From Sporomusa acidovorans (GTDB lineage Bacteria; Bacillota; Negativicutes; Sporomusales; Sporomusaceae), in contig NZ_FNAM01000004.1 in NCBI RefSeq assembly GCF_900101845.1, positions 1-64,000 of the forward strand: a stretch of 64,000 nt of DNA. Direction: 5' to 3'. Position 1 is the first letter of the stretch. The number at the start of each line of letters is the position of its first letter. The notes beneath the pieces are model-generated. The model worked only from the letters and a program-made list of their open reading frames with translations. It did no database searches and was not told where the DNA came from. This document shows, piece after piece, positions 38,079-55,645 of the stretch. The position numbers were made by a program, and so were the translations under genes.

Positions 38079-38564
38079 TTAACCGTTGTATGCGCCTTTG
38101 CTATTCAAATAGTTGTAAATTCCCTCGCCATGCTGCTGCTCTTCCTTTTGAATATGATTCAGAGCCTGGCGTACGTTGGCGTCGGCAAACTCAAAAATCG
38201 CGGTATCATAAGCGCCGGATACATATTTTTCGGTCATCAGCATATCGTTGCATAGCGTTGTGTCTTTTTGGTTAGCCGTTGAGGAAGTACCCGCGGTTGC
38301 CTGAATGCTGCCGGTTTGCTGCGACTGTTGCATTTGCTGCCTTTGCTGCTGGCCTTGGTTCATGCTGGGTACTTGACCGCTCAGGATAGAGTTAATCGTA
38401 CTCAAATGCTGCTGTTCCTGCTGGGCATAGGATTGGAATAATTGTTTCAGCTGCGAGTCGGTAGCCTGCTGGGCATAACTTTGGTATTTTTCAATACAAA
38501 CCCTCTCATGAGACTGTTGATCCTGCAATAACTGCTTTTCCTTTTGGCTAAGTTGTAACGCCAT
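38079..38564 (-). CDS. Spore-coat-like (CotF-type) protein, copy 1
   Basis: 161 residues from ATG 38564 behind GGAGGAGATG. The N-terminal two helices (ALQLSQKEKQLLQDQQSHER, VCIEKYQSYAQQATDSQLKQ) and the C-terminal pair (LCNDMLMTEKYVSGAYDTAI, ALNHIQKEEQQHGEGIYNYL) form a ferritin-like four-helix pattern joined by a Gln-rich linker (QGQQQRQQMQQSQQTGS). This matches the small coat proteins of endospore formers. An almost identical but frameshifted copy lies at 53923-54412. No promoter was recognised, but the gene would be expected in the sporulation regulon. Confidence 0.75.
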   Translation of the reverse strand: MALQLSQKEKQLLQDQQSHERVCIEKYQSYAQQATDSQLKQLFQSYAQQEQQHLSTINSILSGQVPSMNQGQQQRQQMQQSQQTGSIQATAGTSSTANQKDTTLCNDMLMTEKYVSGAYDTAIFEFADANVRQALNHIQKEEQQHGEGIYNYLNSKGAYNG

Positions 38565-38705
38565 ATATCCATCTCCTCCAATTTTTTCATAGCTTTCCCA
38601 GCAATGCTTAAAAACATTCAGCAATATGCCGGCAACTTGAAAAAACTGAAGCTCCTTCAGTAGCGCTCTTTGTACATCAACATACTCATGCCGGTCAAAA
38701 TCTTA

Positions 38706-38796: not shown

Positions 38797-39147
38797 TCAA
38801 CTTTTTTCGTGCTTGCCTAACGTCTGTCCCTTCGTGCATTTATGGCGGTCAAAAATAGTCTTTCCATTCCGATCAATATGCTCTTTCAGTTCTTTGTGAG
38901 TAGAATGCGTATAATCTACAATATCAAAGAAGTATGGTAATGGTCCTTCCTCTTCCAACATTGAATGAAGGCGTGCTATTGTAGAAAAAGAAATATCAGT
39001 ACCAAATATAGCGATATCTACATCGGAGGCAATCTTGTAGTTTCCTTTGGCTCTCGATCCAAAAATAACGGCTTTCTCTATTTCATTAAAATCTTCTATC
39101 ACCGAAATGATGTAGGCTAAATCTGTATTATTAAGGCCATAACCCAT
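38797..39147 (-). CDS. MNT-type nucleotidyltransferase of an MNT/HEPN pair
   Basis: 116 residues with the minimal nucleotidyltransferase motif KAVIFGSRAKGNYKIASDVD (GSRAxG...SDxD) and the third acidic segment near PYFFDIVDYT. Such MNT proteins, paired with a HEPN partner, act as antitoxins that AMPylate and neutralise a HEPN RNase. The HEPN gene is 23 bases upstream. GGAGGC precedes the ATG. The pair lies between galE pieces, so it arrived as an insertion. Confidence 0.8.
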   Translation of the reverse strand: MGYGLNNTDLAYIISVIEDFNEIEKAVIFGSRAKGNYKIASDVDIAIFGTDISFSTIARLHSMLEEEGPLPYFFDIVDYTHSTHKELKEHIDRNGKTIFDRHKCTKGQTLGKHEKS

Positions 39148-39170: not shown

Positions 39171-39569
39171 CTAGTGCATATTTTCCAATTTTTTCTGCAG
39201 CGCTTTCAATATGGGATAATACCTTCTTCGGATAAGCCTTTCGGCTTCTTGCGCCACACTCTCATCATAGGTATGAGCCATTAAATTTCTCTTTTCCAGA
39301 GCATCGATCCATGTGTGACCATCGTGCACTAATTCTGCTTGAAACGCCGTTTGTAACGTCTGACGGGGACTTTTTACACTAAACCCTTCCGCCTCCAAAT
39401 AATCTTTGGCAGTTTTCCAAGCAAGTTCAAATGTGTATTCAAAACATTGTATCAGCCCTTGCACTTCAAACTTATTTAAATCAGGCTTTTCAACAAACTC
39501 TGTCAGCTGTCCCATTGCCTTCTTATAGTTACTATACCGTTGTTTCCAGCGAACATCCTTTGAGTCCAT
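39171..39569 (-). CDS. HI0074-like HEPN partner of the MNT
   Basis: About 132 helical residues: KKAMGQLTEFVEKPDLNKFE, QGLIQCFEYTFELAWKTAKD, and a C-terminal KRNLMAHTYDESVAQE carrying the R-x4-H of HEPN domains. It resembles the nucleotidyltransferase-substrate-binding partner family. As RNase toxin or regulatory subunit it would be controlled by the MNT product encoded next. The ATG at 39569 has GGGGA nine bases upstream; ATG 39578 is possible. Confidence 0.78.
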   Translation of the reverse strand: MDSKDVRWKQRYSNYKKAMGQLTEFVEKPDLNKFEVQGLIQCFEYTFELAWKTAKDYLEAEGFSVKSPRQTLQTAFQAELVHDGHTWIDALEKRNLMAHTYDESVAQEAERLIRRRYYPILKALQKKLENMH

Positions 39570-39661
39570 CTGACACATTCCCCATCCCCCTTCTGCTCTT
39601 CTCGCATATTTTTTCAGCCACAGTCCCGCTCTCCTCTTGACCTTATTATATCAACAATCCC

Positions 39662-40660
39662 TTATAAATCAAATAGCTGGCTCTCAAACCGCCAAGCGTC
39701 CCGGCACATTGCCACTATGTCCCGTTTCGCCTTCCATTGTAACTTCTTCTCAGCTTTTGTCGCATCCGCATAACATTCGGCAATGTCTCCCGGCCTGCGG
39801 TTAACAATCTCATACGGCACTGCAATATCATTGGCCTCTTCAAAAGCTCTCACCAGTTGCAGCACGGAAGTACCCCGGCTTGTCCCCAAATTATAAATAT
39901 GCACACCTGCCGTGAGGTGGTCAAGTGCGGCCACATGCCCTTCGGCCAAATCCATGACATGAATATAATCCCGGACCCCTGTACCATCGATTGTCGGATA
40001 GTCATTGCCAAAAATCCGCAGCTTAGTTAGTTTGCCTTTAGCCACCTGAGTAATATACGGCATCAGGTTGTTCGGGATGCCGTTGGGCGACTCACCGATC
40101 AGGCCGCTCTCATGGGCGCCCACAGGATTGAAATACCGTAGAAGGGACACAGAAAAGTCCGGATTGGCTTTGGCTATGTCGGTCAGAATTCTTTCACTCA
40201 TAACTTTTGTTTCGCCATACGGGTTGGTAGTCGGCAAAAGTTTCATGGTTTCCACAAAAGGAACCTTATTTTCACCGTATACGGTAGCCGATGAACTGAA
40301 AATAAATTTCTGCACTCCATACTTCTGGCAGGCTTTTGCCAAAACCATAATGCCTGCCAAATTGTTATAGTAGTAGGCAAGCGGTTTTTCAACAGACTCC
40401 CCCACTGCTTTCAGCCCGGCAAAATGAATCACACCGTCTAGGCTGTGACTGGAAAAGACATGATCCACCGCCGCCTCATCGGTCACGTCGATCTGATAAA
40501 ACGTTACTTTCCGGCCTGCTATCTTTCTGACCTTGTCCAGGGTCTCCGCTTTGCTGTTGCACAGATTATCAGCCACAATTACCTCATGGCCTGCCGCCAG
40601 CAAAGCAACACAGGTATGGGAACCTATATAGCCGGCACCGCCTGTTACCAGTATGTTCAT
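39662..40660 (-). CDS. galE: UDP-glucose 4-epimerase, copy 1
   Basis: About 332 residues, SDR-extended fold: NILVTGGAGYIGSHTCVALL (NAD-binding glycine motif), SSSATVYGENKVPFVE and the catalytic NPYGETKVMSERI (YxxxK), with VSLLRYFNPVGAHESGLIG. It interconverts UDP-glucose and UDP-galactose for surface glycans. The start at 40660 is two bases after the stop of a Y1 transposase gene; the native ribosome site seen at copy 2 (GCAGGAGAGG) is missing and only GGGAAG remains. Copy 2 lies at 54537-55529 in the same orientation. Confidence 0.95.
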   Translation of the reverse strand: MNILVTGGAGYIGSHTCVALLAAGHEVIVADNLCNSKAETLDKVRKIAGRKVTFYQIDVTDEAAVDHVFSSHSLDGVIHFAGLKAVGESVEKPLAYYYNNLAGIMVLAKACQKYGVQKFIFSSSATVYGENKVPFVETMKLLPTTNPYGETKVMSERILTDIAKANPDFSVSLLRYFNPVGAHESGLIGESPNGIPNNLMPYITQVAKGKLTKLRIFGNDYPTIDGTGVRDYIHVMDLAEGHVAALDHLTAGVHIYNLGTSRGTSVLQLVRAFEEANDIAVPYEIVNRRPGDIAECYADATKAEKKLQWKAKRDIVAMCRDAWRFESQLFDL

Positions 40661-40662
40661 AA

Positions 40663-41148
40663 TCAATCTACTTCCCTTTTTAGTAAAATATCGGAAATTT
40701 CTCCGCCCTCTGCTATTACCTTTATGAATGATTTCAAACAACTATACGCTTCCTTTCCGGCTATGCCGGCCTTTTCGGGATTCTGGTGAACATAGCGGAT
40801 AACCGTCAAAAAATAGGTGTTATTCTCTATATTCTCACTTTTATAACGGTCTTGAAACAGATGCCCAACCCGCTGGTATTTTTGATTAAAGTACTTTACA
40901 TAGCTTGTGCCAATACGTTTCATCAGTTTAGCAATGCCACTGCCCCCTTCTTTTATTACCAAGTGAACATGATTATCCATGAGACAATAGGCATATAACA
41001 AGCAGCCCTCATCAGATTTCTTCGAGTACAAGAAATCTATGAAGGTCAATTTATCTTCATCATCAAGAAATATATCTCTTCGTTCATTACCACGTATCAT
41101 TACGTGGTAAATGCCTGTTTTACTAAGTTGCCTTGCATTTCGCGGCAT
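40663..41148 (-). mobile_element. REP-associated Y1 transposase gene, copy abutting galE 1
   Basis: 161 residues from MPRNARQLSKTGIYHVMIRG, an ATG preceded by GGGTGA. HUH metal site MDNHVHLVIKEGG and nucleophilic Tyr in IGTSYVKYFNQKYQ, with LFQDRYKSENIENNTYF and VIRYVHQNPEKAGI. It is a complete TnpA_REP/IS200-like catalytic domain. Upstream (41190-41225) is the sequence CTGTCCCCAATGCTTCTTC typical of the flanks of such genes. It displaced the 5' region of galE copy 1. Confidence 0.88.
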
Positions 41149-41233
41149 AGAAATCACCCAAAAACATAATATACCGGCAAAAATCAACTGCCAATCATAA
41201 CTGTCCCCAATGCTTCTTCTGTCCCTTTGTCTT

Positions 41234-41848
41234 TCACTCCAAACCGTCTCCGTTGGTATTTAGTATTTCTTGAAATATATCTTTAAGATCTATTTGGAGG
41301 TCTGGAAAAATTATGGGATGTATTGTGTCGTCCTTGCTAAAATACTCTGCTTCTCTATATTTGGATAACTCTGCATTTATATAAAATCTGGTTATTATCT
41401 GGTGTACCGGATCTACTATCCAATACTCTAAAACGCCGTTCTGTTCATAAAGTCCGCGTTTTTTAATCACATCGAAACTGGCGGTAGATGGCGATAATAT
41501 TTCAATAATAAGGTCCGGACTACCCTTACACCCTCTCTTATCAAGCTTATTGGAATCACAAACTATTGTTATATCCGGCTGTACCACAGTGGATGCAGCA
41601 TCATCTGTTTCCCCTTTTCGCGGTAATCTAACGTCGAATGGAGCTGGATACACTTTACAGGTTTTATTTTTAAGATATCCTGTAAAATGAAACATAAGTT
41701 CGCGCAATATTTCCTGATGCAGCCGATTTGGTGCGGGACTCATAGCGTAAGCAGTACCGTCAATAAGTTCCCAACGCTCACCCTCAGGCCATGTTAAATA
41801 GTCCTTATAAGTATAAATTTTGACATTTTTTATAGCGTTACTACTCAC
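41234..41848 (-). CDS. Uma2 family nuclease-like protein
   Basis: About 204 residues. It shows the DUF820/Uma2 pattern: YLTWPEGERWELIDGTAYAM, SPAPNRLHQEILRELMFHFT, PFDVRLPRKGE, VVQPDITIVCD, GSPDLIIEILSPSTASFDVI and KRGLYEQNGVLEYWIVDPVH. The D/E-x-K-like restriction endonuclease core is present (PDLIIEILS, YWIV). These genes are frequent in accessory islands and their targets are unknown. The GTG at 41848 has AGGAG nine bases upstream. Confidence 0.8.
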   Translation of the reverse strand: MSSNAIKNVKIYTYKDYLTWPEGERWELIDGTAYAMSPAPNRLHQEILRELMFHFTGYLKNKTCKVYPAPFDVRLPRKGETDDAASTVVQPDITIVCDSNKLDKRGCKGSPDLIIEILSPSTASFDVIKKRGLYEQNGVLEYWIVDPVHQIITRFYINAELSKYREAEYFSKDDTIHPIIFPDLQIDLKDIFQEILNTNGDGLE

Positions 41849-42003
41849 AATACTCAACTCCTAATACGGCTTTTCCTTCAGTATATCATATTGGTATAAA
41901 AAGTAAAAATAGCAGTAGCTTTCAAAACTGTCCCAGCGGCCTGTCATTACCTTATGAATCATGCTCCTATTCGATTCGCTTGTTTTTACATTATATTCCA
42001 TTT

Positions 42004-42062
42004 CAAGTCTGTTGTCAATCGGAACCGTCCCCAGTGGCTTTGGAACCGTCCCCAGTGGCTTT
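42004..42062. repeat. 38-bp direct repeat plus tandem 21-mer, left end of the ATPase/SNF2 segment
   Basis: Bases 42004-42041 are identical to 52209-52246. The last 21 bases of the unit, which include ACCGTCCCCAGTGGCTTT, are repeated again in tandem at 42042-42062. A related piece (CCGTCCCCAGTGG) occurs at 42385-42397. Similar GGGGACGGT sequences accompany REP-type transposases in Firmicutes. Confidence 0.85.
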
Positions 42063-42395: not shown

Positions 42396-43631
42396 TTATA
42401 AAACATCATCGGCAGCATCAGCTAAAAAATCGGTCTCTTCTTCCAGTCTTTGTTCTGTTAATTCTGCTGCCGTCATTTTTACTGTTTCATTGTAAATATA
42501 CATTATATCCAACGATTCCAAGGCTGCCCGGACATAGGTACGGATGGGCTGCGATCCGAGTTCATCCACCAGCACCCGCACATCAAGCACCGGAATCCAG
42601 TCGTAGGCAATACCATGAATATCAGCCAGCGTTTCCAGCATTTCTATTAAAACATCACTGCCAACAGGCGCCACCACCGGACTATCACTGCCAATCGCCC
42701 GCTCAAAGAAAACCTCCATTTCCCGCCTGGCCACCTCGCCAAAACGTTCCTCTGCCATCGCAGGCATAATCGTTCGGTCATCTTTGCCACCGCCGTACCA
42801 AATATCATCTTGCAGGCGGGTAGCAGCAGCTGCCAAAGTATAAATGGGATACTGCATCGACTCCGCCCAGTTAAGCAGCCAAGCCAAATTGCGATATGCC
42901 TTAAGCCTGCCAAGTGCACCTAAGCGACCGACTAGTTCCAGTTCATCAATCAGAATCACCCAGCCATTGTAGCCGCACAGCCGGATAGCATCTGCCATTA
43001 CCCCGAAATACGCACCCGCATGCTCACCAACCCGGAACGGAGGCAGCTTAGGAAAATTCGCCTGGCGGGCCGCCCGATGGATTCGTTTTAACTCAGGCAT
43101 CGGCAACCTAATCCCTGTCAGATCGCCATACAATAGGTTTTGCTCTTCGCCGCTGGTATGGAAAAAATTCTCCAACACCAAGGCAGGCAAGGGATGTGTA
43201 TAGCGTTCCGGTTCAACTACCAGACTATTCTCTAAGTCCTCGATACTGCCTGCACTCAGCGCCCGTTCAATCCCCATAATCGTCGAATCCGGTGTCCTGA
43301 CTCTTGGAGCTACCCTGCTGAAAAACTGCAGCAAATTATGGCAGGATACCTCGCGGCTTAAAGAAACCATGCTGACTGCAAACCCCATATCAAGCGCAAT
43401 ATGCTCGATTGTTGTCAATGCATGCGTCTTCCCTTGACCATACTGTCCCCAGACAATTCGCCCCCGTGGAATACGGCCTTCGGAAAAAGTAAGCAAATCC
43501 GAACGGATAGAGTCTGTAAGATTTGGTCGCAAATCCGGCAAACGTCGTGTCGAAATCCGGGTGGGTACACCGGCTCTCAGTGATTCTACCACCCGCACAG
43601 CATTCAGTCTGCTTACATCATATTGTTCCAT
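42396..43631 (-). CDS. BrxD-like (DUF2791) P-loop ATPase, second of a tandem pair
   Basis: 411 residues. N-terminal segment DVSRLNAVRVVESLRAGVPT precedes Walker A at residues 62-69 (WGQYGQGKTHAL); Walker B is WVILIDELELVG at 224-231. The arrangement (VxSLRxGVPxR, then G-rGRIVWGxYGxGKTH) matches the BREX BrxD family. A C-terminal winged-helix-like region follows (LIEMLETLADIHGIAYDWIP). It begins inside the last 14 bases of the preceding ATPase gene and so is coupled to it. ATG 43631 has AGGAGTGAGG upstream. Predicted motor acting on DNA with the adjacent SNF2 helicase (inference). Confidence 0.7.
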   Translation of the reverse strand: MEQYDVSRLNAVRVVESLRAGVPTRISTRRLPDLRPNLTDSIRSDLLTFSEGRIPRGRIVWGQYGQGKTHALTTIEHIALDMGFAVSMVSLSREVSCHNLLQFFSRVAPRVRTPDSTIMGIERALSAGSIEDLENSLVVEPERYTHPLPALVLENFFHTSGEEQNLLYGDLTGIRLPMPELKRIHRAARQANFPKLPPFRVGEHAGAYFGVMADAIRLCGYNGWVILIDELELVGRLGALGRLKAYRNLAWLLNWAESMQYPIYTLAAAATRLQDDIWYGGGKDDRTIMPAMAEERFGEVARREMEVFFERAIGSDSPVVAPVGSDVLIEMLETLADIHGIAYDWIPVLDVRVLVDELGSQPIRTYVRAALESLDIMYIYNETVKMTAAELTEQRLEEETDFLADAADDVL

Positions 43632-44832
43632 GGCTTTCCTCACTCCTTGCCGCCAGCAGCGCGTTCTCCATCACCGCTCTCCTGAGTACACTTTCCTGTG
43701 AAGTATCCGGCATACCCTCCCGGTAACGCCGCTCAAATCCTTTTTGCTTAAAGAACTGCGACAAGCGAGCTGATAACCGTTCGGGAAAATCGTCGCCAAC
43801 TGCGTCATAATGAGCATCCACATCCACAATATCAGCAAATGGATTAAACCGCGTTGACGGCACCAGTCCGGTCTGCAGGCGCATCCAGAGCGCTTCATAG
43901 CTTTTGAATCCGCGCCGTTCATTGTCAATTATCGCTCGCTGCCCTGACAAAACCACCAATAGGCCATTTAAGAGCTCCACATCGTCAATCATCTGGCGAA
44001 ACAACTCACAGGTATCTTTAATGGCATTCGGTGTATAGCGAAACCTACCCGTTTCCGGCACTCGCTCGGTAATCGCCTCAAGATCGTCAATCAACACGAC
44101 TAGTCCCGGCATACCCGCCTGTTCCAATAGCCGAATCAATGAATTCAGCCAATACCGGGCATTTACCCGTTTTAGCTGCTCCAGCAATCCTGTCTCCTGC
44201 TGTTCCTGCTTATCCAGTTTTTCACCAGACAGCCATTTTAGACGCAATTGAAACAAATCACTGTCCATCCCGGCCGTCAGTCCATCATACGCCGTAGTAT
44301 ATGCAAAGGTAACAAATGACGGACCAAAGTCAATTTCCCGGAAAGTCCTGACTGCCGCATTCCGGATTTCCCGCTCGGCATCATAGCGGGCGAACCCATC
44401 TTCAATCAAAAGCGGCAGCAGCCTGCCTTCTCCCTGATAACGCTCCTTGCCGTAACCCAGCCTTTCCGCTACTTTAAGACACAAGCCTTTTACCAGCGCT
44501 GTAAGATTCAAACCTTGAAAGATACTCCGATACAAATTAGGCAAATCATTAATCCTGCATTCCATTTCCCTCACCGATAAGTATACCGCGGCATATCCCA
44601 GACTGCGGGCATCAGCTTCCACACAGCGCAGCAGATGGGTCTTGCCAATCCCCTCGCTGCCCACCAGCACCTTAACTTTACTGCCGCCGCTGGCAATATA
44701 ATTCTGCAGATAGTGCCGTTTAAAGGTGTCCAGCCACACTTCACGCCCCAGGGTTAATCCCTGCAGCCACTCCGGACTGTAGGGAGGTTCCCCTGCCTGC
44801 AGTGCCGCCAAGTCCCGGTCATAAAAAAGCAT
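43618..44832 (-). CDS. BrxD-like P-loop ATPase, first of a tandem pair
   Basis: 404 residues. Walker A GSEGIGKTHLLR at 58-65 and Walker B LVVLIDDLEAI at 244-251; an EWLQGLTLGREVWLDTFKRH start precedes them. It resembles BrxC/BrxD-type AAA ATPases more than cell-cycle or replication AAA proteins, but diverges from the second ATPase (only the P-loop and the ordering are shared). Distinct paralogous motors could form a hetero-oligomer. It follows the coiled-coil gene by two bases and overlaps the second ATPase gene. Confidence 0.65.
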   Translation of the reverse strand: MLFYDRDLAALQAGEPPYSPEWLQGLTLGREVWLDTFKRHYLQNYIASGGSKVKVLVGSEGIGKTHLLRCVEADARSLGYAAVYLSVREMECRINDLPNLYRSIFQGLNLTALVKGLCLKVAERLGYGKERYQGEGRLLPLLIEDGFARYDAEREIRNAAVRTFREIDFGPSFVTFAYTTAYDGLTAGMDSDLFQLRLKWLSGEKLDKQEQQETGLLEQLKRVNARYWLNSLIRLLEQAGMPGLVVLIDDLEAITERVPETGRFRYTPNAIKDTCELFRQMIDDVELLNGLLVVLSGQRAIIDNERRGFKSYEALWMRLQTGLVPSTRFNPFADIVDVDAHYDAVGDDFPERLSARLSQFFKQKGFERRYREGMPDTSQESVLRRAVMENALLAARSEESHGTI

Positions 44833-44834
44833 AG

Positions 44835-45638
44835 CTATTCAACCACCTTATGGACAGTGAGACTGCTGACCCGGCTCTCCCGTCCCCGGCTGTCAACAAT
44901 CGTCACCGCCTTTTCCTGCTTGCGGGGAAAACCAAATTCAAACTGGTACTCATCCAGCTTCATTTCAAACTGCTCCTTTAGCCGCCCCAATTCAAACAAA
45001 AACAACGGCTTCGGGTACTCCTGCCGCGAACCGCGTTTCAAGGTCAACAACTCATACAGTTCTTCCAGCGCCACTGCCCGTCCCCAGAGTACATTACCTT
45101 CCCGGTAGGCAAGCCTGTTAGCTACCTTGTAGGCGCCTAATAGTTCGCGCATAAAGCCTGTCCCGTCAAAGCGTTTGCCGATCAGTTTCTGATACCTGAC
45201 CCCAACCCATTTCGTCACCTGTTTAGGCTGCATTGCCACCGTTTTTTCCTGCTTACGTCCAATGGCCAGACGAATTTCCTTTTCTTCAACAGCCACCGTC
45301 AATTTAAAGGGGACAAACTCATACTGCGGAAACGATCCCTGCAGCGGTATCCCCGCGGCAAGCAGTGCTTGTTCCAACTCCTGGCGGTACTCTTCACTCT
45401 CAACATACCGGCCGTTTTGCTCCATTTCCTGCACTAAGTCCTGTCTATAAATCGACCAAGATTGCGTCAATTCCTCCACTCTGCCGGAATAAACGGCCAG
45501 CGCCTTGTCAAAACTACGAAAATCCCAGGCACTTCCCGCATTTTTTACCGCTGCCCAATTTTTCGACAATTGCTTTGCCAAACCATCCACTTTTTCCACA
45601 GTCGACTTTTCCCGAATTTCCTTACTGATTTCCTCCAT
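44835..45638 (-). CDS. Coiled-coil protein heading the ATPase operon, family not recognised
   Basis: About 267 residues from ATG 45638 behind GAGGAG. The N-terminal 110 residues are helical and charged (MEEISKEIREKSTVEKVDGL, YRQDLVQEMEQNGRYVESEE). A beta-rich core follows (QYEFVPFKLTVAVEEKEIRL, then AIGRKQEKTVAMQPKQVT). A helical C-terminal part ends in a short beta element (KAVTIVDSRGRESRVSS). No catalytic motif, signal or membrane helix was seen. Its position recalls the TerB-like genes placed before BrxD-like ATPases in other Firmicutes; it could be the DNA- or partner-binding subunit. Confidence 0.5.
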   Translation of the reverse strand: MEEISKEIREKSTVEKVDGLAKQLSKNWAAVKNAGSAWDFRSFDKALAVYSGRVEELTQSWSIYRQDLVQEMEQNGRYVESEEYRQELEQALLAAGIPLQGSFPQYEFVPFKLTVAVEEKEIRLAIGRKQEKTVAMQPKQVTKWVGVRYQKLIGKRFDGTGFMRELLGAYKVANRLAYREGNVLWGRAVALEELYELLTLKRGSRQEYPKPLFLFELGRLKEQFEMKLDEYQFEFGFPRKQEKAVTIVDSRGRESRVSSLTVHKVVE

Positions 45639-45694
45639 CAATATCCACTCCTCAAACAATTAAGGACTTATATCCCATTTTTTCTCTATAATAT

Positions 45695-45723
45695 ATTGTA
45701 CCCGGCTGTTATAGCAAGGTCAA
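45695..45723 (-). promoter_or_regulatory. Sigma-A promoter for the ATPase operon
   Basis: On the minus strand TTGACC - 17 bases - TACAAT, with the predicted start near 45688 and a roughly 50-base leader before the coiled-coil gene. Both hexamers are close to consensus. On the plus strand TATAAT at 45852-45857 precedes the SNF2 gene without a clear -35. Confidence 0.65.
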
Positions 45724-45890
45724 TAACCGTTCTGACCAAAACAACCCGCTTTATCCTTTCCGGCACAGGGGGCTGAATTAGAAAAGATGCCACACGGCAG
45801 GATATTTTCCTGTACTAAGCGAAACCACCTTTAGATAACTTTTTCTGTATCTATAATCAACCGTTCATAAAAAGGAGCAATAAAGCCTTC

Positions 45891-48800
45891 ATGCTAATCC
45901 TACATGCTGCCTGGATCAAGGAAAAAAATGACGGCGCCATTCCCCGGCTATTTCTCTGGGCGGAAGACACAGCAATTCTCGCCGCTTTCCAAGAAAAAAA
46001 ATTGTCCACAGACACCGGAAAAACCCGCTTCCACCCCTTCGCCGCACCGGTCAACGAACTTCGCAACCTCTTTAACCATTATACCGACGACCAGGGCACT
46101 CACGTTATCTACCGCAGCCTGGCTACAGTATCCATACTCTTTCTTCCTTCCGGCATAACCGGTCCCTTCCCTTCGCCACAATGCCTTGCCGCCTGCGTCC
46201 AGAAGACTGAGCCTACAGAGGCAGCCTTTCACCCCTGGAAGCTCTCCGGGCTTTCCTTTCCCCCGTCCGAAGCAGCGGCATTACTCCCGCTGCTTGCCAA
46301 AATCGGTACTGCACCGCCCCCAAAGGCCCTACCCGGAGCCGACTTTACTTACCTTGTAATCCTCTTGACGCTAACCCGCCGTCTAATCCTGGAACAACAA
46401 TATGTGCCCATGCTAGCCAAGCACACCTACCGCACAACGACCTGGTATCAAGCCTGCTGGCAGCCTTATCTTGAAGAAGCAGCCGGCACGCTTGACCGCA
46501 TCGTCCAGGCAATGCCTGAATCCTTTTGCCATATTAAAGAATATACCCCCTCTGCCAATCTGCATTATTTCCGTCCGGACAAAAAACAAACTGTTACCAG
46601 TTTTTTCAATGCGATGGTTAACAGCTGTGTAAAGGAAGCGCTTGCTATTTATGATCACCATGACTTAAAAAATGCTTATGCTGCATTATCCGCTCCCATG
46701 AACAATTGGCTGCAGCTACTGACGCTGAACAATAACCTTAGTCTGCAGCTTCCTCCCAAACAGGCCGAACAGTTTCATCAGTCACTGCTGCGCTGGCAGC
46801 AAAATCTTTGGCCTGCCTCAGAACAAAACAAGCTGTTTCGCACTTGTCTCCGGTTGGAAGAACCCTCTAATTCCGGTTGGCGGCTCAACTTTTTCCTTCA
46901 GCCCGCCGATGACCTCAGCCTGCTCGTTCCGGCTGAAGCCGTTTGGGCAGACCAGCAAAACCCCGGCTTGCAGCAAATATTACTGTGCGATTTGGCTGCA
47001 GCCGCCAAAATCTTTGCACCAATTACTGCCGTCTTACACGAACCCTGCCCCACCGGGGTTGACCTAACCACTGAAAATGCCTATGCCTTTTTATCCGAAA
47101 GCACCGGATTTCTTAAGCAGTCAGGCTTTGGCATTATTGTCCCCAATTGGTGGCACAAAGAAACCACCCCCATTAAACTGACGGTCGAGGCTGAAGATTT
47201 CCCCGCAAATTCTTTTTTAGGACTAAATGCACTGGCTGCCTATAAACTGGAGGCCACGATCGGCGACCAACAAGTAAGTTTGGCTGAACTGGAAAATATC
47301 GTCGCATACAAGCTTCCCCTGGTACAAATGGCAGGCCGCTGGCTGGAAATATCCCCGGCCCAAGCCGCTGCCGCGCTTGCCATGCTGCGCAACAGGCAAA
47401 ATAACAACAGACTTATCTCCCTCAGCAGCTTGCTGCATTGCAGCCTCAATGACGGCGATTTTGACCCTGATGAACAAACAGAGCCTGACACTTCCCCCTT
47501 AATCACGGTAAAGGCCACCGGGCACCTGCAAACCCTCCTGCAGCGCCTGAGCGGGCAGCAAACGCTCCCCGAACTTGCTGCACCGACTGCCTTTCAGGGC
47601 ACCCTGCGCCCCTATCAATTGCGAGGCATGAGCTGGCTCTGCTTCCTGCGAGGCTTGGGGCTGGGCGCCTGTTTGGCTGATGACATGGGACTCGGCAAAA
47701 CCATTCAAATCATCGCCTATCTGCTGCACAATAAGCAAACCGGGAGCAAGCAAGCACCCACCCTCATCATCTGCCCAACCTCAGTTATTGGCAACTGGCG
47801 GCGGGAAATTGCCAAATTCGCCCCTAACCTCACATTGATCGTCCATCACGGCAGCAACCGCCTGTCAGGCGGCCAATTTCTGCAAGCGGCACAAACCGCC
47901 GATGTTGTCATCAGCACCTACACCCTGGCCCTCCGGGACGAAGAACTGTTTACTTCGTTTACCTGGGATAACGTCATTCTGGATGAAGCCCAAAACATTA
48001 AAAATCCGTCAACCAAACAAACCCTCAGTATCAATCAACTCAAAGCCACTTCCCGGATTGCCCTGACAGGAACGCCTGTCGAAAATCGGTTAAGCGAGCT
48101 ATGGTCGATCTTGCATTTCATCAATCCCGGCTACCTGGGAACATTGATCCAATTCAAGCAGCGCTATGCCACTCCTATCGAACGCACTGGCGACCAAGAA
48201 CGCCAACATTCCTTGCAGCGCCTTATTAAACCCTTCCTGCTGCGCCGGCTTAAAACTGATAAAACCATCATTCACGATCTGCCGGAAAAACAGGAAACAA
48301 AAATTTACTGCCCACTAACCAAGGAACAGGCCACACTTTATGCCGCTGTCCTTGAGGTAATGCTGCCGCAAATTGAAGCTGCCACGATCTTTACCCGCAA
48401 AGCCCTAATTGCCGCCACCCTGACCAAGCTCAAGCAAGTGTGCAACCACCCGGCGCATTTTTTAAAAGACGGCAGCCTTCTCGACAACCGTTCCGGCAAA
48501 CTAACCCGTCTTATAGAAATGCTGGAAGAACTTTGCGAAGAAAACCGCCGCGCCCTCATTTTCACCCAGTATACCCAGATGGGCGAACTGCTGCGGCAAT
48601 ACCTGGAACAAATATTCCCTGTAACGGTTCCCTTTTTGCATGGCGGCCTCAAACAAAGCGAGCGGGATCAGCTTGTCACCGCTTTCTGTGACGAACAGGC
48701 TGCGCAACCTTTTTTTATTCTATCCTTAAAAGCGGGCGGCGTAGGCCTCAACTTAACCCGGGCAGACACTGTATTCCATTTTGACCGCTGGTGGAACCCG

Positions 48801-49037
48801 GCGGTAGAGAACCAAGCCACCGACCGCGCTTTCCGGATTGGCCAAACAAAAAATGTCCAAGTATACAAATTCATTTGTCCGGGAACGCTGGAAGAACGCA
48901 TTGATGCCATGATCGAAAGCAAAAAAAGCCTGGCCGAAACCATCATCGGTACAGGCGAATCCTGGCTAAATCAACTATCCACAAGTGAACTCAAAGACAT
49001 CCTGACTTTGCGCGAAGCAGAATTGGAAGGAGAATAA
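45891..49037 (+). CDS. SNF2 family DNA helicase/translocase
   Basis: 1048 residues. The first 580 or so residues have no obvious motif and carry the SNF2-associated region. The motor follows: motif I LADDMGLGKTIQII, II WDNVILDEAQNIKNP (DEAQ), III SRIALTGTPVENRLSELWSI, LVIF-type LSLKAGGVGLNLTRADTVF and motif VI ATDRAFRIGQTKNVQVYKF. Rad54/HepA-like translocases remodel protein-DNA complexes. It is followed one base later by a SWIM zinc-finger gene, a pairing known from many bacteria. It diverges from the tandem ATPase operon across a 250-base region with both promoters. AAAGGAG precedes the ATG. Confidence 0.92.
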   Translation: MLILHAAWIKEKNDGAIPRLFLWAEDTAILAAFQEKKLSTDTGKTRFHPFAAPVNELRNLFNHYTDDQGTHVIYRSLATVSILFLPSGITGPFPSPQCLAACVQKTEPTEAAFHPWKLSGLSFPPSEAAALLPLLAKIGTAPPPKALPGADFTYLVILLTLTRRLILEQQYVPMLAKHTYRTTTWYQACWQPYLEEAAGTLDRIVQAMPESFCHIKEYTPSANLHYFRPDKKQTVTSFFNAMVNSCVKEALAIYDHHDLKNAYAALSAPMNNWLQLLTLNNNLSLQLPPKQAEQFHQSLLRWQQNLWPASEQNKLFRTCLRLEEPSNSGWRLNFFLQPADDLSLLVPAEAVWADQQNPGLQQILLCDLAAAAKIFAPITAVLHEPCPTGVDLTTENAYAFLSESTGFLKQSGFGIIVPNWWHKETTPIKLTVEAEDFPANSFLGLNALAAYKLEATIGDQQVSLAELENIVAYKLPLVQMAGRWLEISPAQAAAALAMLRNRQNNNRLISLSSLLHCSLNDGDFDPDEQTEPDTSPLITVKATGHLQTLLQRLSGQQTLPELAAPTAFQGTLRPYQLRGMSWLCFLRGLGLGACLADDMGLGKTIQIIAYLLHNKQTGSKQAPTLIICPTSVIGNWRREIAKFAPNLTLIVHHGSNRLSGGQFLQAAQTADVVISTYTLALRDEELFTSFTWDNVILDEAQNIKNPSTKQTLSINQLKATSRIALTGTPVENRLSELWSILHFINPGYLGTLIQFKQRYATPIERTGDQERQHSLQRLIKPFLLRRLKTDKTIIHDLPEKQETKIYCPLTKEQATLYAAVLEVMLPQIEAATIFTRKALIAATLTKLKQVCNHPAHFLKDGSLLDNRSGKLTRLIEMLEELCEENRRALIFTQYTQMGELLRQYLEQIFPVTVPFLHGGLKQSERDQLVTAFCDEQAAQPFFILSLKAGGVGLNLTRADTVFHFDRWWNPAVENQATDRAFRIGQTKNVQVYKFICPGTLEERIDAMIESKKSLAETIIGTGESWLNQLSTSELKDILTLREAELEGE

Positions 49038-49038
49038 T

Positions 49039-49800
49039 ATGGACCACTGGACAAAGTTTCTGGCAGCGCAAGGACTGGAAAACCGCCTGCAGCGAGGCCT
49101 ACGTTACGCCCGTCAGGGACACGTGCTAAACATCGAAATCAGCAAAAGCCGGATTACCGCCCGGGTGCAAGGCTCGCGTGCCAGACCCTACCGGGTGGAA
49201 ATCCGGCTAAAAGCATTCCCACCTGAAATATGGGACAGTATCATCACAATCATCGCCAGTCAGGCCGCTCTTTCCGCTGCTATCATAACCGGCGAAATGC
49301 CGGAAGATATTGAAAACATCTTCCACAAGGCCGGGTTTTCGCTCTTCCCGCAATCACTAAAAGAAATTGCCGCCGAATGCTCTTGTCCCGACATAGCCAA
49401 TCCCTGCAAACACATTGCTGCCATCTTCTACATCCTGGGTCAGGAGTTGACAAAAGACCCCTTCGTCATCTTTCTGCTGCGCGGCAAAACAAAAGACTCC
49501 TTGCTAGCCGACCTGACGAAAAAAAGATCTTCGTTGCAACAAGCGCTCTTGTCACCAGCACCGGATAACTCACTGCGAATAGAAAATTCACCGCAAGCCC
49601 CTAATCTTGCACATATCATCAAAAACTATTGGCAAACTGGCGACAATCTCGCCGACCTTCCCCTTGCCACCAATCCCCCCCAGTCCCCTTGCCTGCTGCT
49701 GCACCGTCTCGGCAAACCGCCGGACTGGCCGGACGAACCGGACTTTATCGAAGTAATGGCACCCCTGTATGAGCATGTCAGCAGACAGTTTCGCTCCTGA
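49039..49800 (+). CDS. SWIM zinc-finger protein
   Basis: 253 residues. The SWIM signature C-x-C-x(n)-C-x-H is in AAECSCPDIANPCKHIAAIF, preceded by a helical-beta region (NRLQRGLRYARQGHVLNIEI). SWIM domains bind zinc and are thought to contact DNA or proteins next to SNF2 motors. The gene starts one base after the SNF2 stop, so the two products probably work together. Confidence 0.85.
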   Translation: MDHWTKFLAAQGLENRLQRGLRYARQGHVLNIEISKSRITARVQGSRARPYRVEIRLKAFPPEIWDSIITIIASQAALSAAIITGEMPEDIENIFHKAGFSLFPQSLKEIAAECSCPDIANPCKHIAAIFYILGQELTKDPFVIFLLRGKTKDSLLADLTKKRSSLQQALLSPAPDNSLRIENSPQAPNLAHIIKNYWQTGDNLADLPLATNPPQSPCLLLHRLGKPPDWPDEPDFIEVMAPLYEHVSRQFRS

Positions 49801-50973: not shown

Positions 50974-51958
50974 CGGGGTCAGGCTTGAGTTATATGTTTT
51001 TTGACTTATTTCTTTTTTTCTTAACTGTCTGTTAACTCTTGCCAAATCCTTGTAATATTGGCTGGATCAATTTGGAGTATTTGGGCTAACTGTGTTCTTG
51101 TCATTAAATTTCTCTTTATTGCTTCATAAATCAAGCGTTTTCTTGCTGCCACCACCTGCCGTATCCGGCACTTTCCTACCAACTGTTCTTGATTTACTTT
51201 TTCCTCTACAACAATCTTCTCAATTAGCTGTTCCCAGGTTAGCTCCATCTGTCTTTTTTCCATTTCTGTTCTGAGGAAAGTTTTCTGTTCTTCTTTCTCT
51301 TCCTCGTTTCCACTTTTATATTCCGGTTTATCAATAACTGTCCCTACTAAATTCAGATATTGATCTGTTGCCTTCTCTGAATCTGAATTTAATATATTCA
51401 ATATGAATTCTACATTTACTAATCCATACATTCTTCTAACATAGTATTGATGGCTGCTCCACCTATAGTCGATTCCCTCTGCTATCTTTGCCCGTACTGG
51501 ATTCTGATGTATATAACATAGCAGAGTCATTATATAGCTCTCTTTATCACATAAAAACGCCTTATAGCGTTGTTCAAATACGTGCCCGCTGTGTTTACGA
51601 TGCCAATTGTAATACTGCGTATATCTCTGTTGAATGCCTTGCATAATTTTTGCCAATGGAGTTTCACCTACTTGGAGCAGTAGGTGTACGTGATTGTCCA
51701 TAATCACATATGCGTACAATCGAAAACCATATCGTTCTTTATAGTCTGCTAATATCTCTAGATATTTTGTCTTTTCTTCATCTGTTTCAAATACATATGC
51801 CCTATTATTTCCTCGGGCTATTACGTGATAGACTGCATCCTCGTAGTGTATCCTTGGTTTTCTTGCCATCCTTCTCACCTGCCAACCTTACTTTGCTTCA
51901 GTTTAGCAGACTGATTGTAAATAAGTCAATTTTTTTGTATAACTCAAGCCTGACCCCG
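50974..51958 (-). mobile_element. Complete TnpA_REP-type insertion element
   Basis: Bounded by a perfect 21-bp inverted repeat (CGGGGTCAGGCTTGAGTT... at 50974-50994 and its reverse complement at 51938-51958). It contains one Y1 transposase gene read on the minus strand. The element is about 985 bp. GCATGTTCCTCCAA follows its right end. Confidence 0.85.
51021..51869 (-). CDS. REP-associated Y1 transposase
   Basis: 282 residues from ATG 51869 (AGGTGAG upstream). N terminus MARKPRIHYEDAVYHVIARG, HUH site MDNHVHLLLQVGETPL and nucleophilic Tyr in QQRYTQYYNWHRKHSGHVFE, then LLCYIHQNPVRAKI. Unlike the copy at 40663 it has a long C-terminal extension ending in a helix-turn-helix-like stretch (RTQLAQILQIDPANITRIWQ). 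The gene lies inside the 21-bp inverted-repeat element. Confidence 0.9.
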   Translation of the reverse strand: MARKPRIHYEDAVYHVIARGNNRAYVFETDEEKTKYLEILADYKERYGFRLYAYVIMDNHVHLLLQVGETPLAKIMQGIQQRYTQYYNWHRKHSGHVFEQRYKAFLCDKESYIMTLLCYIHQNPVRAKIAEGIDYRWSSHQYYVRRMYGLVNVEFILNILNSDSEKATDQYLNLVGTVIDKPEYKSGNEEEKEEQKTFLRTEMEKRQMELTWEQLIEKIVVEEKVNQEQLVGKCRIRQVVAARKRLIYEAIKRNLMTRTQLAQILQIDPANITRIWQELTDS

Positions 51959-52211
51959 CATGTTCCTCCAAATGCTTTCGAAAAAGCTCATCTTCATCCT
52001 GCTGCATGAGAAACTAAACTATCTTAAGAGTCATTCGTTTTTTTTCGCTTAATTCGTGTCTATGCAACCGAGAAGGCCGCAGTGTATCCTTGATTTTCTT
52101 GCCAGCCATCCTTCTCACCTGCCAACCTTACTTTGCTTCAGTTTAGCAGACTGACTGTAAATAAGTCAATTTTTTTGTTTAACTCAAGCCTGACCCCGCA
52201 TGTTCCTCCAA
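51845..52211. repeat. Right-end duplication of the TnpA_REP element
   Basis: The 127 bases 51845-51971 (transposase 5' end, leader, right inverted repeat and TGTTCCTCCAA) recur with few changes at 52081-52211. The second copy lacks the rest of the element, so it is a truncated solo end. The 52012-52080 gap is unique sequence. Confidence 0.85.
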
Positions 52212-52246
52212 GTCTGTTGTCAATCGGAACCGTCCCCAGTGGCTTT
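52209..52246. repeat. 38-bp direct repeat, right end of the ATPase/SNF2 segment
   Basis: Identical to 42004-42041. Together they bracket about 10.2 kb that includes the ATPase operon, SNF2/SWIM, the lipoprotein and the insertion element. From 52247 to 52449 the sequence is AT-rich and gene-free, with the leader of the capsule gene. Confidence 0.85.
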
Positions 52247-53922: not shown

Positions 53923-54412
53923 TTACCCTATGTTGTATGCGCCTTTGCTGCTCAGATAGTTATAAATTCCCTCGCCGTGCTGCTGCTCTTCCTTTTGAAT
54001 ATGATTCAGGGCCTGGCGCACGTTCGAATCGGCAAACTCAAATATCGCGGAATCATAAGCGCCGGACACATATTTTTCGGTCATCAGCATATCGTTGCAT
54101 AGCGTTGTGTCTTTCTGATTGGCCGTTGAAGAAGTACCCGCGGTTGCCTGAGTGTTGCCGGTTTGCTGCGACTGTTGCATTTGCTGCCCTTGCTGCTGGC
54201 CTTGGTTCATGCTGGGTACCTGACCGCTCAGTATAGAGTTAATCGTACTCAAATGCTGCTGTTCCTGCTGGGCATAGGATTGGAATAATTGTTTCAGTTG
54301 CGTATCAGTATCCTGCTGGGCGTAAGCTCTGGTACTTTTCAATACAAACCTTCTCATGAGACTGTTGATCCTGCAATAACTGTTTTTCCTTTTGGCTAAG
54401 TTGTAATGTCAT
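53923..54412 (-). pseudogene. Spore-coat-like protein, copy 2, frameshifted
   Basis: The ATG at 54412 (same GGAGGAGATG site as copy 1) begins MTLQLSQKEKQLLQDQQSHE, KVCIEKYQS as in copy 1, then reads LRPAGY and stops. At about 54325 there is one extra base (AGCTTACGCCCAGCAG against AGTTATGCCCAGCAG in copy 1). The rest, in the shifted frame, matches copy 1 closely through NYLSSKGAYN. A shorter protein from a later start (MRRFVLK...) is possible, but the structure of the duplicate indicates inactivation. Confidence 0.85.
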
Positions 54413-54536
54413 ATATCCATCTCCTCCAATTTTTTCATAGCTTTCCAGCAATGCTTAAAAACATTCAGCAATATGCCGGCAACTTGAAAAAACGGAAGCT
54501 TCATTCAGTAGCTAAGCTTGTTACCCCTAAGCCTCT

Positions 54537-55529
54537 TTAGCTTTCCTGGCACTCAAACCGCCAAGCGTCCCGGCACATTGCCACTATGTCCCGTTTCACC
54601 TTCCATTGTAACTCCTTCTCAGCTTTTGTCGCATCCGCATAACATTCGGCAATGTCCCCCGGTCTACGGTTAACAATCTCATACGGCACTGTAATGTTAT
54701 TGGCCTCTTCAAAGGCCTTCACCAGTTGCAGCACAGAAGTACCCCGGCTTGTTCCCAAATTATAAATATGCACACCTGCCGTCAGGTGATCAAGTGCGGC
54801 CACATGCCCCTCGGCCAGATCCATAACATGAATATAATCCCGGACTCCTGTACCATCAATTGTTGGATAGTCATTTCCGAAAATCCGCAGCTTAGTTAGT
54901 TTGCCTTTGGCCACCTGAGTAATATACGGCATCAGATTGTTCGGTATGCCGTTGGGCGACTCGCCGATCAGGCCGCTCTCATGGGCGCCTACAGGATTGA
55001 AATACCGTAGTAGAGATACTGAGAAGCCGGAATCTGCTTTAGCTATGTCAGTTAGAATTCTTTCGCTCATAGCTTTTGTCTCTCCGTATGGATTTGTAGC
55101 TGGTAAAAGCTTCATAGTTTCAACAAATGGAACATTATTCTCACCATATACGGTAGCTGATGAACTAAAGATAAATTTATTGACTCCATACTTCTGGCAG
55201 GCTTTTGCCAAAACCATTATGCCTACCAGATTGTTATAGTAATAGGCAAGCGGTTTTTCAACCGATTCCCCCACTGCTTTCAGCCCGGCAAAATGAATCA
55301 CACCGTCTAGGCTGTGACTGGAAAAGACATGATCCACCGCCGCCTCATCGGTCACGTCGATCTGATAAAACGTTACTTTCCGGCCTGCTATCTTTCTGAC
55401 CTTGTCCAGGGTCTCCGCTTTGCTGTTGCACAGATTATCAGCCACAATTACCTCATGGCCTGCCGCCAGCAAAGCAACACAGGTATGGGAACCTATATAA
55501 CCGGCACCGCCAGTTACCAATATATTCAT
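54537..55529 (-). CDS. galE: UDP-glucose 4-epimerase, copy 2
   Basis: About 330 residues with the same SDR motifs as copy 1 and roughly 95% identical in protein. It keeps the native ribosome site (AGGAGAGG before ATG 55529). DNA identity is uneven: bases near 55310-55500 are almost identical to copy 1, while 55010-55190 differ at perhaps a quarter of positions and are more AT-rich, so the gene is a mosaic. The C terminus (FECQES) differs from copy 1 (ESQLFDL). Confidence 0.95.
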   Translation of the reverse strand: MNILVTGGAGYIGSHTCVALLAAGHEVIVADNLCNSKAETLDKVRKIAGRKVTFYQIDVTDEAAVDHVFSSHSLDGVIHFAGLKAVGESVEKPLAYYYNNLVGIMVLAKACQKYGVNKFIFSSSATVYGENNVPFVETMKLLPATNPYGETKAMSERILTDIAKADSGFSVSLLRYFNPVGAHESGLIGESPNGIPNNLMPYITQVAKGKLTKLRIFGNDYPTIDGTGVRDYIHVMDLAEGHVAALDHLTAGVHIYNLGTSRGTSVLQLVKAFEEANNITVPYEIVNRRPGDIAECYADATKAEKELQWKVKRDIVAMCRDAWRFECQES

Positions 55530-55645
55530 AATCATTTAACCGCCTCTCCTGCAATCGTTTTCAGCCTTCCAATACTGCCTACTGCCTGACTACCGGCACC
55601 GCTTTTGCCGGCATGTTATTCTACCGGCAAATTCTATAGTTTCTC

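Follow-up and report, generated by a model that had tools for sequence, protein, structure and literature searches.

A recurring three-gene module with two BrxD-like AAA+ ATPases, found beside lineage-dependent DNA motors and in CRISPR-cas loci

The locus in Sporomusa acidovorans

A stretch of 64,000 nucleotides from Sporomusa acidovorans (contig NZ_FNAM01000004.1, positions 1 to 64,000; hereafter the window) harbors five closely spaced genes that an earlier reading of the sequence had put forward as one undescribed system: a coiled-coil protein (CC) and two BrxD-like ATPases (ATP2 and ATP1), transcribed away from a SNF2 translocase and a SWIM zinc-finger protein. An open reading frame (ORF) check of the window confirmed all five at the positions given in this original prediction (Table 1). 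CC, ATP2 and ATP1 (the triad) form a tight minus-strand operon, from which the SNF2 and SWIM genes diverge with 231 bases between; these two genes are one base apart, as had been claimed. The longer ORF listed for ATP1 begins at a GTG, and the ATG at 43631, with AAGGAG upstream, is the better start; with this start the predicted overlap of 14 bases between the ATPase genes holds. The CC frame opens at a TTG, but translation more likely begins at the ATG at 45638, which is preceded by GAGGAG and is the point where the CC gene begins in a second species of the same genus (genome G123).

Table 1. Features of the five-gene locus and its surroundings (positions in the window)
Feature	Position	Strand	Remarks
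ATP1	42396..43631	-	Second BrxD-like AAA+ protein, Walker A and Walker B (DE) intact; listed ORF 42396-43643
ATP2	43618..44832	-	BrxD-like AAA+ protein, Walker A kept, without the Walker B glutamate (IDD)
CC	44835..45659	-	Coiled-coil hairpin (residues 1-86) plus alpha/beta part; unnamed family
Intergenic region	45660..45890		Promoter-like sites 45723-45695 (-) and 45830-45857 (+); consensus matches only
SNF2 translocase with DUF3670	45891..49037	+	Candidate motor partner of the triad
SWIM zinc-finger protein (CSCPDIANPCKH)	49039..49800	+	Pfam SWIM plus motif
MNT gene	38797-39147		Pfam
NTase_sub_bind/HEPN-like gene	39171-39578		Pfam
Uma2 gene	41234-41857		Pfam
Direct repeat pair	38085-38664 = 53932-54512		93% identity
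Direct repeat pair	39677-40665 = 54546-55534		92% identity

The proteins of the triad

Both ATPases match the Pfam family BrxC_BrxD (PF10923) well above its gathering cut-off of 22.2 bits (ATP1 58 bits, ATP2 88 bits), in keeping with the BrxD likeness first noticed, and their Walker A motifs are those originally read (GQYGQGKT in ATP1, GSEGIGKT in ATP2). BrxD and SngB are also the best PADLOC matches of both, and weak ones; the NCBIfam equivalog for BrxD (NF033438) gives 40.4 and 84.3 bits and does not reach its cut-off of 350, and the PADLOC scores for SngB (32.5 and 42.1 bits) are lower than those for BrxD. The two proteins are homologous to each other (hhalign, 99.2%), and profile matches in the PDB connect ATP1 to DnaI (E 0.0021) and ATP2 to DnaA (E 4e-6), the resemblance being weak. 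All 48 ATP1 sequences have the G-x4-GK[TS] motif, R246 and the D-E of Walker B. Of the 36 ATP2 sequences all have the Walker A lysine and none has the D-E of Walker B; the residue following the Walker B aspartate is D in 27, N in seven, Q in one and G in one, and never E. Judged by these residues, ATP1 and ATP2 look like an active/inactive AAA+ pair in which only ATP1 seems able to hydrolyse ATP. The pattern matches that of AAA+ initiator and loader assemblies such as the origin recognition complex (ORC) and replication factor C (RFC), where hydrolysing subunits are paired with non-hydrolysing ones.

CC scores above no Pfam cut-off and belongs to no Pfam, PADLOC or NCBIfam family; across the 63 members of the CC family, no family of these three collections matches more than three. 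In its confidently predicted structure (mean predicted local distance difference test score, pLDDT, 94.5) a long helical hairpin precedes an alpha/beta part, and no known relative is convincing. The CC family is an unnamed marker by which triad loci can be found.

Distribution of the triad

A search with ATP2 in 398 Bacillota genomes gave 19 matches (E <= 1e-12) in 18 genomes, the window genome included. CC, ATP2 and ATP1 were present in this order in 17 of the 18 other places, the weakest of which (G319) has two ATPases and no CC match, and the triad was found in 16 of the 397 other Bacillota genomes. In a wider survey, a pattern scan of one genome per species over 84,980 species, the best 80 of 263 relatives were taken as named loci. 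Profiles of the three proteins placed CC, ATP2 and ATP1 in that order and on one strand in 78 of these 80, and the remaining two (L113 and L152) end at contig ends. By their record titles, the loci belong to Bacillota, Cyanobacteriota, Atribacterota, Coprothermobacterota, Spirochaetota, Cloacimonadota, Thermodesulfobacteriota, Armatimonadota and other phyla, many of them from metagenome-assembled genomes.

The three-gene operon is accordingly an unnamed, system-like unit, as the original prediction had proposed, with an order that recurs in many phyla. The five genes as one system did not hold up, since CC-ATP2-ATP1 accompanied by SNF2 and SWIM was found in no genome other than those of the window and G123, and the neighborhood survey did not find the five together in unrelated genomes. 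The claim of a three-gene module is strong and that of a five-gene system weak; the conserved unit is smaller and far more widespread than was first held. Locus L064 (2839-11127) carries two tandem BrxD-like ATPases, a gene for a coiled-coil protein without a match to CC and, close by, a PLD + SNF2 protein, and is perhaps a further, more distant version of the triad.

DNA motors beside the triad

Of the 80 named loci, 49 encode a DNA motor no more than three genes away from the triad. These motors are helicases of superfamily 2 (SF2, ResIII-type; 29 loci) and superfamily 1 (SF1; 13), SNF2 proteins (four), BrxL (two) and a HerA-like protein (one). The SF2 genes are mostly divergent from the triad, and the SF1 helicases contain AAA_11/AAA_12 and a zinc ribbon. 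Among the 18 other Bacillota places, SF2 helicases were found in L052-L055, SNF2 proteins in L062 and L063 and BrxL in L060. On a tree of ATP2 with 85 rows, 53 of them with a motor label, the labels require six changes, the minimum for seven labels, compared to 22.3 in shuffles. The SF1 rows form a single clade (support 99), the SF2 label needs two changes because the HerA locus lies inside SF2, and the BrxL label also needs two. Motor types thus follow the ATP2 tree. The window groups with Cyanobacteriota, Atribacterota and Peptococcaceae in a set of 15 rows (support 96); beside the triads of these other members, the motor queries used found no match.

Two further arrangements were observed. 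The gene for BrxL, the Lon-like BREX protein, lies directly 3' of ATP1 and in the same direction at L060:1155-3200, L103:12445-13923 and L105:4512-6002. Additionally, a gene of 190 aa without a Pfam family lies between ATP1 and the SNF2 gene, in the same operon, at L062:11899-12480 and L063:11858-12418.

A CRISPR-linked branch

Five loci have CRISPR-cas genes beside the triad. In four of them (L057:8078-18053, L058:4664-19097, L059:392-13547 and L217:3743-17998) the triad is located between cas effector genes and genes of the cas1/cas4 type, and in the fifth (L215:6396-12638) the match is on the adaptation side only. These five loci are of type I with differing subtypes: L058 is of type I-D (Csc1, Csc2, Cas3') with an array of 58 repeats, L059 encodes Cas5b, Cas3 and Cas1, L217 matches the effector genes of L059, and L057 shows Cas3 and a Cas7-like gene, its Cas1 match being only a short one. 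As for the other members of the branch, the contigs of L216 and L219 are too short to judge the cas context, L218 (G551) has no cas match, and L220 has ATP1 and a distant Cas3-like match only. ATP2 of the CRISPR branch lacks the Walker A motif in eight of eight sequences, whereas two SF1-type controls possess it. The branch may feed DNA to spacer acquisition. The available part of the text of the 2025 CRISPR classification contains neither 'BREX' nor 'AAA' (PMC12669027). One genome of the branch (G369) carries two triads, a CRISPR-linked one (L059) and a stand-alone one (L047), with a PglZ gene about 15 kb from L047 on the same contig.

The SNF2-SWIM pair and its possible tie to the triad

The SNF2 protein of the window comprises the Pfam domains SNF2-rel_dom, DUF3670 and Helicase_C, and its neighbor matches Pfam SWIM (24.6 bits, cut-off 19.6) and contains the CxCxnCxH motif. 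The curated cut-offs for Zorya ZorD (288 of 1500 bits), DISARM DrmD (101 of 950) and DpdE (54 of 500) were not reached, and the NCBIfam model of the SCO1167/SCO6262 family helicase gave 675.5 bits over residues 338-1041, under its cut-off of 1200. In domain content the pair resembles YwqA/sll1366/SCO1167-like SNF2 (DUF3670) proteins with SWIM, from which it differs by scoring under the SCO1167 cut-off and by adjoining the triad. In B. subtilis a SWIM gene presumably also lies beside ywqA.

The pair did not accompany the triad elsewhere: no SWIM match was found near the triad in the 18 other Bacillota places, where the SNF2-like matches of L062, L063 and L064 are of kinds other than that of the window, and the SWIM protein of the window had no match in any of the 80 named loci. 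Four of the 80 (L089, L092, L096 and L097) possess another SNF2 gene upstream of the triad on the opposite strand, and in three of these a SWIM motif is inside the SNF2 protein itself. A divergent SNF2 with an internal SWIM motif is a partial parallel to the window arrangement.

CC was found in two of 60 relatives, both within the genus (two of nine members), and G123 holds all five genes, with identities to the window of 87% for CC, 91% for ATP2 (residues 1-281), 82% for ATP1 (residues 264-410), 74% for SNF2 and 68% for SWIM; in that genome ATP2 has lost its end and ATP1 its start to a deletion of about 1.1 kb. The ratio of nonsynonymous to synonymous substitution (dN/dS) between window and G123 is 0.05-0.14 in the triad and 0.18-0.22 in SNF2 and SWIM, with 0.07 in pgm. 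These values and identities, and the recurrence of the triad across phyla, mark the arrangement as no chance occurrence. In G123 the five-gene block lies between pgm and manC, which adjoin without the block in all eight other relatives examined and in the window, where the block is located about 8 kb beyond them, between duplicated cotF-like and galE-like genes. The synonymous divergence (dS) of the five genes is 0.80-0.96, compared to 1.39 for pgm and 2.52 for manC. Given the different sites and the similar, lower dS of all five genes, the block seems to have moved as one piece. In another relative (G139), the last 64 SNF2 residues (84%) and the SWIM gene (59%) are found at a contig end, with no CC or ATP2 match in a genome that is 58% complete.

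Relation to known systems

The BrxD-BrxHI dyad of BREX type 2 shares with the triad loci a BrxD-like AAA+ protein of ORC/Cdc6 type beside a helicase; BrxD is described as an ORC-Cdc6 AAA+ protein that may load BrxHI (PMC12839542). The triad is unlike it in its two diverged ATPases, one without the catalytic glutamate, in CC, in the several motor families and in the lack of PglZ on the contig. The absence of PglZ from the window contig agrees with what had been stated at first, and the only PglZ match of the genome is an open frame of 206 aa on contig C46, the window being on C34. Among 18 triad genomes searched, PglZ is above cut-off in eight and absent in 10. PglX methyltransferase and BrxC were not among the nine window proteins scanned, the other window ORFs having been read by eye only.

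Shango is a set of TerB, an ATPase and a helicase for which antiphage activity has been demonstrated (PMC10250203). Shango (SngABC) and the triad loci have in common a three-gene set with a BrxD-like ATPase, SngB being a weak PADLOC match, and a helicase. Unlike Shango, the triad has two ATPases, no TerB protein that could be found and a variable motor often on the opposite strand. TerB models matched neither CC nor the other four window proteins and were not among the matches listed for 63 CC members, and SngC was not among the best 25 of the 44 PADLOC matches of SNF2.

Two other sets are similar in part. A pair of Orc/Cdc6 proteins with a KAP NTPase, from predicted defense loci, includes a second Orc/CDC6 whose Walker A is intact and whose Walker B is disrupted; it has the KAP NTPase instead of CC and a motor, and the likeness is one of description (PMC10853773). 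PbeABCD includes an ABC ATPase (PbeC) and two small proteins, PbeB and PbeD (PMC10853773, PMC6459918); PbeA models matched the SF2 helicase next to the triad at L112, and no triad protein matched any Pbe model. The literature searched contained no description of the CC-ATP2-ATP1 triad and no name for it. The triad is best placed with the BrxD-type ATPase-plus-motor kind and outside BREX and Shango.

Proposed function and alternative explanations

The reading favored here is that CC, ATP2 and ATP1 are one AAA+ machine that loads or licenses a lineage-dependent DNA motor, probably against invading DNA, and its chances appear evenly balanced. The three proteins would come together as a heteromeric AAA+ assembly similar in type to DnaA, DnaI and ORC-Cdc6. 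In it, ATP1 would hydrolyse ATP; ATP2 would bind ATP, hydrolyse it poorly and have a structural or regulatory role; and CC would be an adaptor bridging the assembly to DNA or to a partner. The assembly would recognise some DNA state and then load or license a separate motor, which would depend on lineage and be an SF2, SF1, SNF2 or BrxL protein or CRISPR-Cas machinery, its likely purpose being action on invading DNA. From the weak profile resemblance to loaders and the adjacency of motors, motor loading is plausible. The earlier proposal that the ATPases load or regulate a motor survives in this general form, which fits the motors recurring near the triad; the SNF2-SWIM pair as part of one five-gene system is not supported. 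Defense is the likeliest use of the triad because of its kinship with BrxD and SngB, its patchy distribution and its presence in CRISPR loci. In the window, the most likely motor would be the divergent SNF2 with its SWIM protein. A broader version, in which the triad is a general bacterial complex for motor licensing with interchangeable motors and its branch in type I CRISPR-Cas loci may feed spacer acquisition, is tentative, with the balance tilted clearly against it. BrxD-like ATPases have been proposed, without proof, as BREX helicase loaders, and a small gene set that pairs an active with an inactive ATPase and has lineage-specific motors would make this idea directly testable; the branch in CRISPR-cas loci would link such machinery with adaptive immunity.

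Several observations weigh against the favored reading. No motor match was found in 31 of the 80 loci; 15 of these have short flanks, and the other 16, where two or more genes are present on either side, include most of the clade of the window (Cyanobacteriota, Peptococcaceae). The SNF2 label on the ATP2 tree lumps the DUF3670 kind of the window with another kind, and unlabelled rows are ignored. The 80 loci were picked by ATP2 patterns and are silent on CC or ATP1 without ATP2. The PADLOC families matched numbered 125 in triad flanks and 58 in control stretches taken from those genomes (134 proteins each), and 24 of the 25 families listed for the flanks are Cas families, so that enrichment outside CRISPR loci is not established.

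Other points bear on the tie to SNF2 and SWIM, and with them an explanation with somewhat less than an even chance, namely that the triad is a real module and SNF2 and SWIM an independent two-gene unit that merely adjoins it, the triad acting alone or with a motor encoded elsewhere. SNF2 and SWIM would then have a role in repair or at stalled RNA polymerase, in line with proposals for SNF2 proteins like YwqA. DUF3670-SNF2 proteins occur in four of 16 other triad genomes and in 71 of 381 others, without clear enrichment; the closest relatives of the window triad have no SNF2 beside them; in G123, SNF2 and SWIM are intact beside a triad broken by deletion; and G139 retains the end of SNF2 and SWIM with no CC or ATP2 match, within the completeness of that genome given above. 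YwqA, a Swi2/Snf2 protein of B. subtilis, is reported to interact with RNA polymerase (PMC7385302). On the other hand, all five genes changed place together with similar dS, and a divergent SNF2 lies upstream of the triad in the four sister-clade loci, three of them with the SWIM motif. A partnership of the SNF2-SWIM pair with the triad in the window is about an even call.

It is unlikely that the module serves the chromosome of its host cell (repair, replication restart or transcription-replication conflicts) and not defense. The DnaA/DnaI-like ATPases, the repair-type motors and the strong purifying selection on the triad, with dN/dS like that of pgm, would suit such a role. The same other genes follow the triad in cyanobacterial L082, L083 and L086, as in a settled chromosome region, and CC and ATP1 had no match in 50,697 phage records, nor ATP1 in 72,556 plasmid records. 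The patchiness within the genus, at the pgm-manC site and across Bacillota speaks against it, as do the five CRISPR-cas loci and the relatedness to BrxD and SngB. That the locus is a divergent form of Shango or BREX is very improbable: BrxD and SngB are the best PADLOC matches and a helicase is nearby, but no TerB match was found among the five proteins, the BrxD score is far under its curated cut-off, and PglZ is missing from the contig and from more than half of the triad genomes searched. Least probable is that the triad is carried by a mobile element or belongs to it, as a transposon-type AAA+ target selector, and has no host function. The different sites in two species, the duplicated flanks, transposase-like ORFs and Uma2 around the block and a weak touch of the ATP2 profile on IstB-type ATPases would point that way; no integrase or transposase recurs among the commonest neighbor clusters, not all of which are annotated, and purifying selection is strong.

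The surrounding island

A Pfam scan and a repeat comparison bore out the island features described at first, namely the MNT/HEPN-like pair, Uma2 and direct repeats around the operon (Table 1). The ORFs at 40663-41187 and 51021-51878 look like Y1 transposases by their motif. The direct repeats hold a cotF-like and galE-like pair that is duplicated (92-93%) on both sides of the island, and in the first copy the MNT/HEPN-like pair sits between the cotF-like and galE-like genes. A 38-base repeat, identical at 42004-42041 and 52209-52246, lies near both transposase-like ORFs and is possibly an element end; one of its copies falls inside a perfect promoter-like match.

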